DNA of 36,360 nucleotides from a virus: positions 1 through 36,360 of the IMG/VR virus record IMGVR_UViG_3300025592_000032, one strand, 5' to 3'. The notes under the pieces are model-generated. The model saw only the letters and a list, made by a program, of their open reading frames with translations, ran no database searches and was not told where the DNA came from. The translations under genes and the position numbers were made by a program. This document shows, piece by piece, positions 8,746-30,117 of the stretch. The stretch's first letter is position 1. Every line of letters starts with the position of its first letter.

Positions 8746-9440
8746 CAGGAACTCGTATCAATCCAGATTTCCCCAGCAGCACCAGCAGACGGAGCGGTGG
8801 AAGCAATCGTTACCTTAGCGAAACCCAACCCGTTAATATCAGCGTAAGATTGGTCAGCGGTAGCAGCAGCCTCGATGCCATCAAGTTTCGTACCATCAGC
8901 AGCAACATCACGGCCATCAACGTTACCAGTAACAGTAATCGCACCAGAAACAGTCAACGCAGTCAAAGACCCAACAGACGTAATCGCAGGTTGAGCAGCA
9001 GTCGTCACCGTACCAGCAGTAGTAGCCGAAGTAGCCGACGTAGCAGTAGTAGCGTTACCCGAAGTGTCCTGCGTACCCGCAGCATCCACACCCGGTAAAG
9101 AAATGTTCCCCGTGCCATCAAACGACACACCCCCAATAGTGCGGGCAGTAGCCAAAGCGGTTGCCGTAGCCGCATTACCAGACGTATCGTTCGTAATCGC
9201 AGTAACAGCCCAAGTAGAAGTACCAGAACCGTTCGCTACTAAAATAGCGTTCGCGGCAGCAGCAGAAGCAGCCGAAGAACCTATACCAAGTTTAGTTTCC
9301 AACGCAAGAACCGCGCCATGCACATTTACATGGAGAAGGTCGTGTTCAAACCCTGTATCATCCATGTCTGTAGTAGACAAAATGTCTGTACGGAGAGTCC
9401 CCCCGCCCGTATCTAAAGCGTTCGGATAAGCAGTAGTCAT
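8745..9440 (-). CDS. Tail fibre protein sharing its N-terminal module with the collar fibre
   Basis: 231 residues. Residues ~20-56 (DMDDTGFEHDLLHVN...LETKLGIGSS) closely match residues ~22-53 of the collar fibre at 5112..6146, suggesting that both dock on the same virion site. Residues ~60-160 are Ala/Thr/Gly-rich shaft sequence (NDTSGNAATATALATA, GNATTATSATSATTAG). Near residues ~165-195 is the motif GNVDGRDVAADGTKLDGIEA, common in fibres of aquatic phages. The C-terminal end (GAAGEIWIDTSS) is typical of a fibre. GGAGG lies 7 nt before the ATG. Confidence 0.7.
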   Translation of the reverse strand: MTTAYPNALDTGGGTLRTDILSTTDMDDTGFEHDLLHVNVHGAVLALETKLGIGSSAASAAAANAILVANGSGTSTWAVTAITNDTSGNAATATALATARTIGGVSFDGTGNISLPGVDAAGTQDTSGNATTATSATSATTAGTVTTAAQPAITSVGSLTALTVSGAITVTGNVDGRDVAADGTKLDGIEAAATADQSYADINGLGFAKVTIASTAPSAGAAGEIWIDTSS

Positions 9441-25615: not shown

Positions 25616-25796
25616 CAGACTCCTCCACCAAAGTTTCACACGACCCTAAGGAATGGCTTGTTATCGCTGTCCAGTTTTCTTCAACGGGGCCGGGGTGGAG
25701 GGTTTGTGTTACACCGGGTTTGCCGTTGCCGACGATGATGAGGATGGTTTCTCCGCAGGAGCATTCGTGGCTCATCGTGTTTTGCTTACGAAACAT
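25608..25796 (-). CDS. Small Cys-containing hypothetical protein
   Basis: 62 residues from ATG at 25796. That ATG overlaps the stop of the PP-loop gene (TAATG), with GGGGAG a little further upstream than ideal. The N-terminal SHECSCGETI resembles the CRCGERIV of the next protein, so the two may be diverged relatives. The rest (GNGKPGVTQTLHPGPVEENW) has no known domain. An internal ATG seven codons later is also possible. Its tight coupling to the PP-loop enzyme suggests a shared process. Confidence 0.45.
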   Translation of the reverse strand: MFRKQNTMSHECSCGETILIIVGNGKPGVTQTLHPGPVEENWTAITSHSLGSCETLVEESGG

Positions 25797-26587
25797 TATG
25801 TAAAACAACTCCCCGAATCGCAGCCCTCCGGCCCCTCCAAATCAAGAGCCATCTGGTCATCAACCACCCTGTCCAACGGCGCACCAAACTTCGTCATCCA
25901 CATTTTGTACCCTTTCCCCAGTTCATCGCAACGATCACCCATCGCTTCCTCGATCTCAACGGCTTTCGCAAACAACGCTGGCCTCTCATTTTTCAACTCC
26001 CGCCACGACTCCATCGAATGAAACGGACAAAAAAAGCAAGCCGAACGAGGAGGCTTAGGCAACCCCACCTCCTCTATCACATCGAAACAATCCCTGCGGT
26101 GCATCCCCAAATCCAACAAAGGGTAATCCAACAACTGATCGTCAAACCCGCTGTCTGTTCTCGCCCTCTGAATCTCATCAACACTAATACCCAAACCAAC
26201 TGTCGCCGGGTTCTCGCTCGTCGAACCGAGTTTACGATGCCAACGATGCACAACCTTTATTTTGTAATCGCCCGTGCATTTTCTCCGCCCAGGAGCCGTC
26301 CCCACATACATAGGGATAATGATCGAACGTGTCGGACGCAAAATGTCCTCCACTAAAGTAATCGGTTTCCCGCGCAAAGTGTTGTGAAGCTCATGTAGTT
26401 CAATACCGTGCTTCTTCGCAAACGGTTTATGGTACTCATGGAAATATTCGATAGTCAATGGGTCTTCACTATCGTCGCCAACGTTCGCAAACAGGAACGC
26501 GTCATACGGATCAGGTAACCGGCCCAACGCTTGCAACGCCAAAACAGCCGTCGATTGGACACCTCCACCGAAACTAAAGAACCTCAC
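25796..26587 (-). CDS. PP-loop ATPase, PAPS reductase-like
   Basis: 263 residues from GTG at 26587 (GGGAG 7 nt upstream; a TTG at 26593 is less likely). The PP-loop is FSFGGGVQST at ~3-13, which binds ATP and activates a substrate by adenylation. Other blocks are FANVGDDSEDP, RRKCTGDYKI, SACFFCPFHS and CDSGSCF; these Cys may hold an Fe-S cluster or relay sulfur. Proteins of this type are common in actinophages under the name PAPS reductase-like, but sulfate reduction is unproven for them. Relatives act in tRNA thiolation and DNA phosphorothioation. No dnd-type partner is present here. It heads the minus-strand block next to the origin-like region. Confidence 0.75.
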   Translation of the reverse strand: MRFFSFGGGVQSTAVLALQALGRLPDPYDAFLFANVGDDSEDPLTIEYFHEYHKPFAKKHGIELHELHNTLRGKPITLVEDILRPTRSIIIPMYVGTAPGRRKCTGDYKIKVVHRWHRKLGSTSENPATVGLGISVDEIQRARTDSGFDDQLLDYPLLDLGMHRRDCFDVIEEVGLPKPPRSACFFCPFHSMESWRELKNERPALFAKAVEIEEAMGDRCDELGKGYKMWMTKFGAPLDRVVDDQMALDLEGPEGCDSGSCFT

Positions 26588-26666
26588 AACCAATCTCCCT
26601 TACTCGTAGAACCACAACACTACACCAAAAACCCGCCAAACACAAGAACCTAACGCCGCCACCACC

Positions 26667-26675
26667 TGCTATAGT
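26667..26675 (+). promoter_or_regulatory. Extended -10 promoter on the plus strand
   Basis: TGC-TATAGT, the same sequence as at 11822..11830 and 36206..36214. No -35 is seen. It would start a transcript near 26682 that runs through a highly structured segment and towards the low-complexity frame at 26844. Confidence 0.4.
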
Positions 26676-26681
26676 AAAACC

Positions 26682-26828
26682 AACACCGATTTTCTGGTGT
26701 TTCCCGCCTAACCCGCGAGAGGCTCGCCCGTCAGAGGGGCTTCAACCCCCTGCACCAAAAGACAAGAGTCAGCAGGGGTAGAACAGTCCAGGACAAAGCT
26801 AGTTCAAGGCAGACTGGCCTCAACTAGC
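26682..26828 (+). ncRNA. Structured RNA segment with mutually exclusive hairpins
   Basis: Consecutive stems are AACACC/GGTGTT (26682..26701), GCGAG/CTCGC (26715..26727), and AGGGG/CCCCT with a 7-nt loop (26735..26751). The strand CCCCTGC (26747..26753) can instead pair with GCAGGGG (26772..26778). Last comes GCTAGTT/AACTAGC (26798..26828) enclosing AGGC/GCCT. The last stem ends directly before GGAGGG (26829..26834). The alternative pairing is the hallmark of a switch or attenuator. It could equally be a stable small RNA. No Rfam family could be assigned by eye. Confidence 0.4.
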
Positions 26829-26843
26829 GGAGGGACCCAAGGG

Positions 26844-27146
26844 ATGCCACCGCCCAAACACACCCGCCGCCCCGACACACCCGCCACAAGTGTCACAAGT
26901 GTCATAAGTGTCACCCCCAACCAAAAACCACAAGCCACCCAAACTGCCACAAACCCACAGCCAAACAAACCCACCCCGGCAGACCACACAAACACACCCC
27001 ACAACACACACAACAAACACACACACAACACCCAAACATTCGACCCAACCAGCCACCAAAACAACCACCCCCAGTCGAAACACAACAACCCAAAAACACC
27101 CCACCACCAGCAAAAACACAAAAACACAACACAACCACACCGATAA
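26844..27146 (+). CDS. Low-complexity Thr/Pro/Asn/His/Gln reading frame, doubtful gene
   Basis: 100 codons from ATG to TAA. The product is almost wholly T, P, N, H, Q, K with no hydrophobic core. In favour: GGAGGG lies 9 nt before the ATG, and a structured leader with an extended -10 promoter precedes it. Against: the frame sits in CA-rich DNA that nearly lacks G, so stops are rare by chance in several frames, and the codons show no other selection that I can see. If real, it would be a disordered early protein. Confidence 0.22.
   Translation: MPPPKHTRRPDTPATSVTSVISVTPNQKPQATQTATNPQPNKPTPADHTNTPHNTHNKHTHNTQTFDPTSHQNNHPQSKHNNPKTPHHQQKHKNTTQPHR
26886..26912 (+). repeat. Three tandem 9-bp repeats, iteron-like
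   Basis: ACAAGTGTC, ACAAGTGTC, ATAAGTGTC lie head to tail with no gap. Spacing is a little under one helical turn. They are in the CA-rich half of the divergent region and could bind an initiator or regulator. Confidence 0.55.
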
Positions 27147-27151
27147 TCAGT

Positions 27152-27222
27152 GGTGGCACGCGGGGGGGCTGGGCAAACCCCCGCAGGGAGGGGGTAACCC
27201 TCACCCCGCCCCGCATGCCACC
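27152..27222. repeat. Long inverted repeat at the strand-composition switch
   Basis: GGTGGCA (27152..27158) pairs with TGCCACC (27216..27222). After one C-A mismatch, GCGGGG (27160..27165) pairs with CCCCGC (27209..27214). The loop contains further G-runs and C-runs, so a G-quadruplex is also possible on the + strand. This is a strong candidate for an origin hairpin or a terminator-like structure. Confidence 0.6.
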
Positions 27223-27274
27223 GGTCCGGCGAGACTATGGGCGGGGGTGGTGGTGGTGGTTGGTGGTGCTTTAT

Positions 27275-27324
27275 TGTTGCCTGGGTGGTGGTGGTGTGTG
27301 TGTGTTGCCTGGGTGGTGGTGGTG
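27275..27324 (+). repeat. 22-bp direct repeat, GT-rich
   Basis: Two perfect copies starting TGTTGCCTGGGTGG at 27275..27296 and 27303..27324, 28 bp apart. The second copy ends just before the TTGACA of the first promoter, so a regulator bound here could act on it. It is part of a broader GGT-rich tract. Confidence 0.5.
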
Positions 27325-27325
27325 C

Positions 27326-27355
27326 TTGACAAGTTAGGTCTAGGTGTGGGATACT
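27326..27355 (+). promoter_or_regulatory. Promoter P1 of the plus-strand block
   Basis: TTGACA (27326..27331), an 18-nt spacer ending TAGGTCTAGGTGTGG, and GATACT (27350..27355). A leader hairpin GTAAGC-TATCCG-GCTTAC follows at 27362..27379. The spacer and hairpin are repeated almost exactly at P2. Confidence 0.75.
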
Positions 27356-27401
27356 TTAAGCGTAAGCTATCCGGCTTACCTTTAGAGAAAAGAGTTTAGT
27401 T

Positions 27402-27556: not shown

Positions 27557-27610
27557 TTGACAGCTAGGTCTAGGTGTGGAATAATGACGGGGTAAGCTAT
27601 CCGGCTTACC
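27557..27610 (+). promoter_or_regulatory. Promoter P2 and leader hairpin upstream of the sliding clamp
   Basis: TTGACA (27557..27562), a 17-nt spacer containing TAGGTCTAGGTGTGG, and AATAAT (27580..27585). Then comes the perfect stem GGTAAGC (27591..27597)/GCTTACC (27604..27610) with loop TATCCG, identical in core to the P1 leader. The start codon lies 22 nt further on after TAAAGAAAAGAG. Confidence 0.85.
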
Positions 27611-27632
27611 TTAAAGAAAAGAGAAAAGAACA

Positions 27633-28361
27633 GTGACTACAGAAACTACAGAAAAGGCCGAGGGAATAAGCCCCGGTACTTTAGAAACACTGACAGTAGA
27701 GCTTGACGCTATGCGCTTTAAAGCGTGTATCGATGCGGCCCTTATTGCCGCTAGTAAAGACTACACGCGGCCCATACTGACCGGGGTTCTGATCGTTAAC
27801 CGGGGTGAATGGATCGAACTAGTGTCAACCGATAGCTACCGGTTAAGCGTGATTACCATGCCGGTATTGTCTCCGGCGGTATTCGAGCCGGTCAACATTG
27901 CTACCGATAGCTTAAAGCAACTATCTACCATGCTTAAAGGCATGAAAAGAGGGGTGGTTTCGTTGACCGTTACACCTAGCGCGGCAGGGCCGGCGGTAGT
28001 GGTAGCCACGGTAACCGGCGGGGGGCAGGAATACCCGACCCCGTCAGAACTCCACTACCGTTTAGCGGTAATAGAAGGCGAGTTCCCTAACTACCCTAAC
28101 CTTTTACCTAAGGAGGGTACTTTTTGGGGTGGCCTGGACACCGGTTCTAAGGGCGTAGGGTTTAATCCTAAGTACTTAGCCGATAGTGCTAAGTGGGCTA
28201 CCATTATCCATCGAAGTTATGGCGATAAGGATTTACCGGTAATCTTTGGGGCCGTTGATCACTTAAAGCCTGCCACGCTAACGGTAAGCCATGATCCTAA
28301 CGATACCCCGGACGGGATGCCCCGGCCCGTGTACCTTTTAATGCCAGTCCGGATTAGCTAA
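27633..28361 (+). CDS. Short DnaN-like DNA sliding clamp
   Basis: 242 residues from GTG at 27633. Recognisable clamp motifs are RPILTGVLI (46-54), ELVSTDSYRLSV (62-73), IEGEFPNYPNLLP (147-159), GVGFNPKYLADSAKWA (174-189), and the C-terminal VYLLMPVRI (233-241), which matches the end of bacterial beta clamps. Bacterial clamps have about 370 residues in three domains; this one lacks roughly one domain, so it may form a ring with a different subunit number. It would tether a polymerase, presumably the host enzyme since none is encoded here. It has its own promoter and a perfect terminator. Confidence 0.85.
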   Translation: MTTETTEKAEGISPGTLETLTVELDAMRFKACIDAALIAASKDYTRPILTGVLIVNRGEWIELVSTDSYRLSVITMPVLSPAVFEPVNIATDSLKQLSTMLKGMKRGVVSLTVTPSAAGPAVVVATVTGGGQEYPTPSELHYRLAVIEGEFPNYPNLLPKEGTFWGGLDTGSKGVGFNPKYLADSAKWATIIHRSYGDKDLPVIFGAVDHLKPATLTVSHDPNDTPDGMPRPVYLLMPVRIS

Positions 28362-29799: not shown

Positions 29800-30117
29800 T
29801 CACTTTAGCACGGTGTCGCGCAGTTTCGCTATGTCTGCTAATAGTTTTTCTTTCGACACGGGATTCCCTGATGGCGGCAACGCCTTATACATTGGTTCTG
29901 CTGCCCGTTTCAACGCTGCGACCTCAGCTACCACCGTAGACATAGCAGGCCACCATTCTTCCGTCGCGGCTAACCGATCCATTGCTTTACGGGTTAGTTC
30001 GTAATCCATCGCCGACAAGCGTTGATGCCAAGACATTATTGTTGCATCCAAGATTTTGGATTGCGGCCACACACTAGACATGCCGAACAAGATACGGTCT
30101 GCTTCTTCGTTAGTCAT
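29800..30117 (-). CDS. Probable helicase-loader/replisome-organiser-type protein
   Basis: 105 residues. The helical pattern 'MTNEEADRILFGMSSVWPQSKILDATIMSWHQRLSAMDYELTRKAMDRLAATEEWWPAMSTVVAEV' resembles the phage G39P-type helicase loader family, where an N-terminal bundle opens with 'L..l...yP......t...W...L.d.dye....a...l......fpP....i'. Those proteins bring the host or phage replicative helicase to the origin. No helicase is encoded here, so the host DnaB would be the target. It has GGAG upstream and an 8-bp overlap with the previous gene. Last gene of the operon. The family call is from pattern memory. Confidence 0.5.
   Translation of the reverse strand: MTNEEADRILFGMSSVWPQSKILDATIMSWHQRLSAMDYELTRKAMDRLAATEEWWPAMSTVVAEVAALKRAAEPMYKALPPSGNPVSKEKLLADIAKLRDTVLK

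Follow-up and report, generated by a model that had tools for sequence, protein, structure and literature searches.

What lies in the intergenic region around positions 26,588 to 27,401 of an uncultured viral genome (IMG/VR record IMGVR_UViG_3300025592_000032, 36,360 bases, all of which were analysed and are called the window here), where the DNA changes abruptly from C/A-rich to G/T-rich, is the question of this report. Our answer, to which we give a probability of roughly 0.6, is an RNA-based origin of phage DNA replication. The locus is probably an RNA-driven origin because it begins with a part that matches the non-coding RNA on which plasmid replication of mycobacterial phages depends, and origin function in this phage is suggested by that homology. 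A sequence-only reading of the region had also proposed an origin; the idea holds through the RNA head that matches the mycobacteriophage origins, and not on the grounds first offered for it. The key part of the locus, a structured RNA element (E5) and its promoter (Table 1), was overlooked in that reading.

C and A dominate the plus strand to an extreme degree between about 26847 and 27141, G and T have taken over by about 27240, and no other stretch of the window is comparable. A count of G in 300-base segments gives 23 from 26847 onward and never fewer than 43 elsewhere in the window; the tract is not uniformly G-free, with 14 G in 26846-26950 and 9 G in 26950-27141. Between adjacent 150-base segments at 27149 the A + C fraction falls from 0.93 to 0.34, and this difference of 0.59 compares with a maximum of 0.28 in 200 shuffles and with 0.34 for the next largest switch in the window, which bears out the abrupt change noted earlier. 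Bases 27239-27330 (92 bases) comprise 49 G, 33 T, 8 C and 2 A, and the longer direct repeats said to flank the switch are present as TTGCCTGGGTGGTGGTG at 27277 and 27305. As plus-strand RNA the tract has a minimum free energy of -19.6 kcal/mol (genome median -75.4 kcal/mol), none of 145 equal-sized segments sampled folding more weakly, and its complement is much more structured (-56.0 kcal/mol). The low G content may thus be a means of keeping the spacer single-stranded, sparing the folded head and the 3' block on either side. An open reading frame of 100 amino acids (26844-27146) was considered as a gene and rejected, because the length and content of the tract vary freely among relatives; its product is of low complexity and has no Pfam or PHROG match, and open frames are expected here because the DNA is T-poor. 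The C/A tract of one relative (L013) holds an open frame (MIHFKIGKQKHTYIPQWHGTHWNLTLHQF...) that is more protein-like than the usual low-complexity frames and is perhaps an inserted small gene.

Relatives were collected from IMG/VR with the terminase as query (135 found, 80 kept). Many carry a one-strand-biased tract upstream of the terminase operon in the same orientation as in the window, and their spacers average 0.88 A + C and 0.06 G on the strand equivalent to the plus strand of the window, the automatic boundaries of single loci being rough. The search for the same layout in related phages, proposed along with the origin idea, thus found it in dozens of uncultured relatives, upstream of terminase genes; since the layout is kept, the lack of conservation that had been named as evidence against an origin is not what the relatives display.

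The head of the predicted RNA, E5, is well supported as a structured RNA; iterative nhmmer matched it in 39 sequences of the set that was searched first. In a 49-sequence alignment, 94.4% of the cells of its four named helices are paired, both partners vary in 11 of 14 pairs (140 compensated cells), and covariation reaches 0.514, against at most 0.12 for slid partners; kinship inflates compensation counts, and the slid controls keep this relatedness and still fail. Column pair 7-17 of helix H1 is GC in 26 sequences and CG in 22, and pair 8-16 is GC in 22, AU in 16 and CG in 10, with none unpaired; helix H2, the part in common with the mycobacteriophage origins, is paired in 100% of cases. G-U pairs (18) outnumber A-C departures (4), which favours the plus strand as the RNA. 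The head possibly closes with a pseudoknot, and in the window itself the energy fold favours GCUAGUU/AACUAGC (26798-26804 with 26822-26828) over H4. Rfam gave no match at gathering score over the element in the window or its relatives, no tRNA or tmRNA was detected in the window, and plain BLAST of the region against annotated phages returned no match. One phage contig with an E5 head (L175) also encodes a Pistol ribozyme (RF02679, 60 bits) at 8917-8979, about 150 bases before a tRNA gene.

In 38 of 57 distinct loci an extended -10 motif (TGnTAnnnT) precedes E5 by no more than 75 nt on the same strand (mean of 0.95 and maximum of 5 after shuffling). It is missing from a subgroup of loci that includes L053, and no clear -35 element accompanies it in the window.

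Table 1. Features of the predicted RNA locus and of the adjoining clamp gene, in window coordinates.
Feature	Position	Strand	Remarks
Extended -10 promoter element TGCTATAGT, predicted	26667..26675	+	hexamer 26670-26675; start expected near 26682
E5, structured 5' (head) domain of the predicted non-coding RNA	26700..26845	+	about 145 nt
Helix H1 of E5	26705..26717	+	26705-26707 with 26715-26717; 49-sequence alignment
Helix H2 of E5, loop GUCAGAG	26724..26740	+	stem 26726-26729 with 26737-26740
Helix H3 of E5	26747-26753 with 26772-26778	+	
Helix H4 of E5	26781-26784 with 26802-26805	+	92% paired, every pair compensated
Possible 3' pseudoknot of E5	GGC 26808-26810 with GCC 26817-26819	+	proposed from the alignment
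G-poor, C/A-rich spacer, predicted largely unstructured	26846..27141	+	126 A, 136 C, 23 G, 11 T
Three 9-base repeats A(C/T)AAGTGTC inside the spacer	26886..26912	+	direct reading
GATAATCA, window form of the conserved 3' block E3	27142..27149	+	
Long hairpin (inverted repeat 27152-27222) directly after GATAATCA	27150..27222	+	-52 kcal/mol, z = -3.8
GGCGAGACTA motif at the border to G/T-rich DNA	27228..27237	+	
G/T-rich segment with direct repeats, predicted start of the replicated (leading-strand) side	27238..27325	+	
Promoter and leader hairpin, copy 1, ahead of the clamp gene	27326..27394	+	TTGACA-18-GATACT, then GTAAGC/GCTTAC
Promoter and leader, copy 2	27557..27623	+	TTGACA-17-AATAAT; 84% identical to copy 1 over 51 nt
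DNA polymerase sliding clamp, beta-clamp-like, first downstream gene	27633..28361	+	242 aa; Pfam PF02767, E = 8.9e-11; PHROG 947, E = 4e-16

RNA-based prophage origins were reported in 2020 for one phage cluster, in a main text without secondary structure or stem-loops (PMC7157519). In the non-RepA parABS mycobacteriophages, a non-coding RNA is expressed upstream of parA in the reverse direction (Wetzel and colleagues, PMC7157519). Deleting this region destabilises the prophage in Alma and LadyBird, and the ori segment alone suffices for plasmid replication (Alma, LadyBird and others); lytic growth stayed normal in the published ori deletions (LadyBird 25900-26299, Alma 26463-26959; PMC7157519). 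Cluster A mycobacteriophages share the core TCGCCCGTCAGARGGGC of the aquatic element; in Steamy it sits next to parA, on the other strand. A covariance model built from aquatic phage loci only (R1) matches LadyBird at 26075-26241 (E 2e-9) and Alma at 26679-26785 (E 5e-6), inside the published ori deletion in both cases. It also matches RedRock and Gladiator, and the matches in these four genomes, which were fetched by the accessions of the paper and not by motif, are all antisense to parA (E 2e-9 to 5e-6). Nine of 10 further phages fetched via similarity to the Steamy region match R1 as well; Et2Brutus, which has a validated origin, Daredevil and KatherineG are missed. The specificity of R1 was gauged on 397 genomes from the phylum of genome G006, where the model, under stricter filters, gave no other match at E <= 1e-4.

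In the mycobacteriophage-type head (14 sequences, 12 distinct) pairing is complete (100%), and compensation is seen at 7 of 9 pairs. A reciprocal model (R2), built from mycobacteriophage-type origins only, was searched against 583 kb of loci that had been collected through protein similarity and gave 38 matches at E <= 1, of which 37 fall on E5 on the same strand (best 7.5e-7) and one, in L020, lies between tract and terminase. L018 and L021 are among the relatives with heads nearest to those of the mycobacteriophage origins. Its best match anywhere in the window is 26724-26740 (E = 0.0047), which covers H2 only. By these reciprocal models, the H1-H2 head is held in common with experimentally defined ori RNAs.

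A 16-mer scan of bacterial genomes returned mostly chance matches, and the scan loci that also scored with R1 came only from Nocardia, Rhodococcus and one member of the Acidimicrobiaceae, with tested neighbour genes that were uninformative; these R1 scores are not independent evidence because the loci had been chosen by motif. E5-like heads are found in Nocardia and Rhodococcus genomes (L238, L241, L287, L303 and L317), and a sequence shared downstream of them (TAAAGGCGGACTCGG ... GAGTAATCCCCG) resembles the mycobacteriophage origins. Gordonia phage Daredevil (L333, 3349-4538) has a long intergenic region upstream of the terminase with an E5-like variant, CCCCGGTCAGAGCGGG, and without annotated parABS nearby.

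The cluster A origins (RedRock, Alma, LadyBird, Gladiator; PMC7157519) and the window thus both have a non-coding RNA, predicted in our case, in an intergenic region, with the same H1-H2 head and a GU(C/U)AGA loop, and an initiator protein was not found nearby, in our case among the ORFs scanned with Pfam and PHROGs. The mycobacteriophage origins have no C/A spacer and only the 5' head in common with the window, the remaining RNA being different; in the window the head extends through H3, H4 and the possible pseudoknot before giving way to a G-poor spacer and a 3' block of another kind. The surroundings differ as well: no parABS was found near the element, which lies upstream of the terminase operon and beside the clamp gene. 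A reversed placement upstream of parA was not found either, ParA and ParB being absent among the scanned window proteins, and the locus is therefore not to be filed as the same prophage-maintenance cassette, a distinction of context and not of mechanism. The restriction of the common part to H1-H2, and in the R2 match of the window to H2, counts against an origin, as do the lack of a C/A spacer in the mycobacteriophage origins, the failure to find parABS near the element, the normal lytic growth of the published deletions and the missed Et2Brutus. In its favour stand the conservation of sequence and structure, the promoter-like element, the consistent strand, and the homology of the head to RNAs that mycobacteriophages require for replication.

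Behind the spacer, relatives carry a 3' block (E3) that is conserved as sequence: AACCAAAACnCCCAAAACACCGATAATCA, about 20 nt, then CGGCACATnCCCC. As a folded RNA domain E3 was rejected, its consensus structure being unconvincing. The window has a divergent form, GATAATCA, with a long hairpin directly behind it; this is the interrupted inverted repeat described earlier, and 13 of its 14 bases are indeed complementary. The exact hairpin is not common to the relatives, many of which have GAGACTA, GCGAGAC or GCAAGAC variants behind E3, followed by 150 bases with an average A + C of 0.33. The iteron-like 9-base repeats are likewise real in the window, but an iteron origin falls away as a common theme, because comparable repeats (TGTCAC or TGTAAC) were seen among the relatives only in L035, L038, L043 and L070; conserved iterons linked to an initiator gene were not found, nor was such a gene among the scanned proteins.

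Other suggestions of the sequence-only reading did not hold. A canonical G-quadruplex motif (four runs of at least three G) is absent from both strands of the region. GC skew does change sign at the locus, but it follows gene direction throughout the window, and a skew minimum was therefore set aside as evidence for an origin. The 36,360-base record, in which a terminal repeat was not found, does not show a circular genome.

The genes do diverge from the locus, with 25796-26593 on the minus strand and the clamp gene on the plus strand. The former, the first gene of the leftward operon, encodes a PAPS-reductase-like protein (PHROG 424) with few relatives among viral contigs. The clamp is short, and Pfam recognises its central beta-clamp domain only; relatives of the clamp were found only in the same phage and among remote proteins. 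Two nearly identical sigma70-type promoters stand in tandem ahead of it; behind each come a leader hairpin (GTAAGC-TATCCG-GCTTAC) and a ribosome site rich in purines. An actinobacterial host is indicated by WhiB-like genes in the window. The scanned proteins include clamp, SSB, Rad52-like, exonuclease and resolvase genes and a weak helicase-loader match at 29800-30117. Polymerase, primase, RepA and ParAB were not found among the window proteins scanned with Pfam and PHROGs, many small ORFs being unassigned and the record perhaps incomplete; this agrees with dependence on the replisome of the host. In 16 of 38 E5-bearing relatives (L009-L073; hand count) the contig breaks off no more than 1 kb past E5, which may reflect either assembly breaks at low-complexity or variable sequence or physical genome ends.

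Under an RNA-based origin, transcription in this phage, DNA priming, the site of the RNA-to-DNA switch, the direction of synthesis and lytic use would be as follows. The dedicated promoter would transcribe a non-coding RNA rightward, away from the structural operon. The first 145 nt of this RNA would fold into a compact and possibly pseudoknotted head, the following 300 nt or so would remain unfolded as the G-poor spacer, and the RNA would end in the conserved 3' block (GATAATCA) and the hairpin. The RNA or its processed 3' end may then serve as initiator or primer for the host replisome, assisted by the phage clamp and SSB and possibly by a helicase loader, and DNA synthesis would proceed rightward into the G/T-rich side. 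There are precedents for such a scheme. The RNA II transcript of ColE1 is a leading-strand primer whose folded 5' part is needed, and no initiator protein is involved. G-rich RNA favours R-loops and stable RNA-DNA hybrids; the C/A-rich RNA predicted here is the opposite of that hybrid-favouring type and differs in this from RNA II. At the transcript-primed origins of phage T4, the transcript is likewise the leading-strand primer, according to a review (PMC3016281). The likeness of the window locus to both systems is one of mechanism only, by analogy.

Because the head alone is common to both groups of phages, the leading rival is a role of the head in antitermination or stability. The head could be a cis-acting leader for processive antitermination that makes RNA polymerase resistant to Rho and other terminators, and so permit a long untranslated C-rich RNA, or an early operon, behind it. 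Rho binds G-poor, C-rich, unstructured and untranslated RNA, and an RNA of the present kind would therefore need protection. The put antitermination RNAs of HK022 are also compact stem-loop RNAs right behind a phage promoter, a functional likeness only. The position of E5 directly behind a promoter-like element agrees with such a leader, as does the A4 mycobacteriophage Kampy, where R1 matches 50672-50750 (E 1.7e-8) in a highly transcribed region ahead of early genes. Kampy carries the head, and the C/A spacer was not seen there. We nevertheless consider this reading unlikely: it explains neither plasmid replication by the mycobacteriophage region alone (PMC7157519) nor the conserved E3, and the clamp operon has tandem promoters of its own. 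Kampy also bears on a second reading, which is more unlikely still, that the element is a stable, abundant trans-acting regulatory RNA that titrates, for example, a host protein or RNA polymerase and has no role in replication. In Kampy, 41% of the phage transcript coverage at 5 minutes and 51% at 15 minutes come from the head-bearing region, which has no matching peptides (PMC4626039), as such an RNA would lead one to expect; the authors of that study, however, locate a start site near 50,400 and explain the coverage by a pile-up of reads at the promoter (PMC4626039), so that the element can be linked to the Kampy RNA only tentatively. The prophage instability of the Alma and LadyBird deletions and the sufficiency of the region for plasmid replication (PMC7157519) argue against a purely regulatory RNA.

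An origin fired by a protein, with the 9-base repeats or E3 as binding sites of a putative initiator and the RNA merely regulatory, appears improbable. It would account for the conservation of E3 as sequence rather than structure and could draw on the three 9-base repeats and the weak helicase-loader match, but comparable repeats are missing from most relatives and the scanned proteins, which leave many small ORFs of no assigned function, did not include an initiator. Least credible is a packaging region (cos or pac), whether or not it includes an RNA. Such a region would suit the position of the element at the start of the terminase operon and the contig ends beyond E5; these ends, however, are scattered over that kilobase instead of marking one site, low complexity or hypervariability would also break assemblies, the heads of the mycobacteriophage origins lie far from cos, and the base-pair compensation speaks for an RNA.

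RNA-based phage origins as such were already known from one cluster (PMC7157519). What is new, as far as the literature searched shows (few subscription papers and preprints were covered), is the head structure, for which Rfam gave no match, together with its occurrence in aquatic actinophages and the combination of G-poor spacer and 3' block. A lytic role of the RNA-based origin would be new too, because the published ori deletions left lytic growth unaffected. At somewhat less than even odds, a large and for the most part uncultured family of apparently non-plasmid tailed phages of actinobacteria may replicate lytically by a structured initiator RNA without an initiator protein, in which an enforced G-poor spacer links the folded head to a 3' priming block, and the same head may unite prophage plasmid origins, the dominant A4 early RNA and aquatic phages as one undescribed RNA family. 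Through the compensated head domain, the cluster A origins are tied to widespread aquatic actinophages and also to the early RNA region that is the most abundant in A4 phages and whose role was previously unexplained. A covariance model is now available for finding such origins, H2 and its GUCAGA loop offer a concrete target for mutation, and together they open a route to asking whether RNA is enough for lytic phages to initiate replication.
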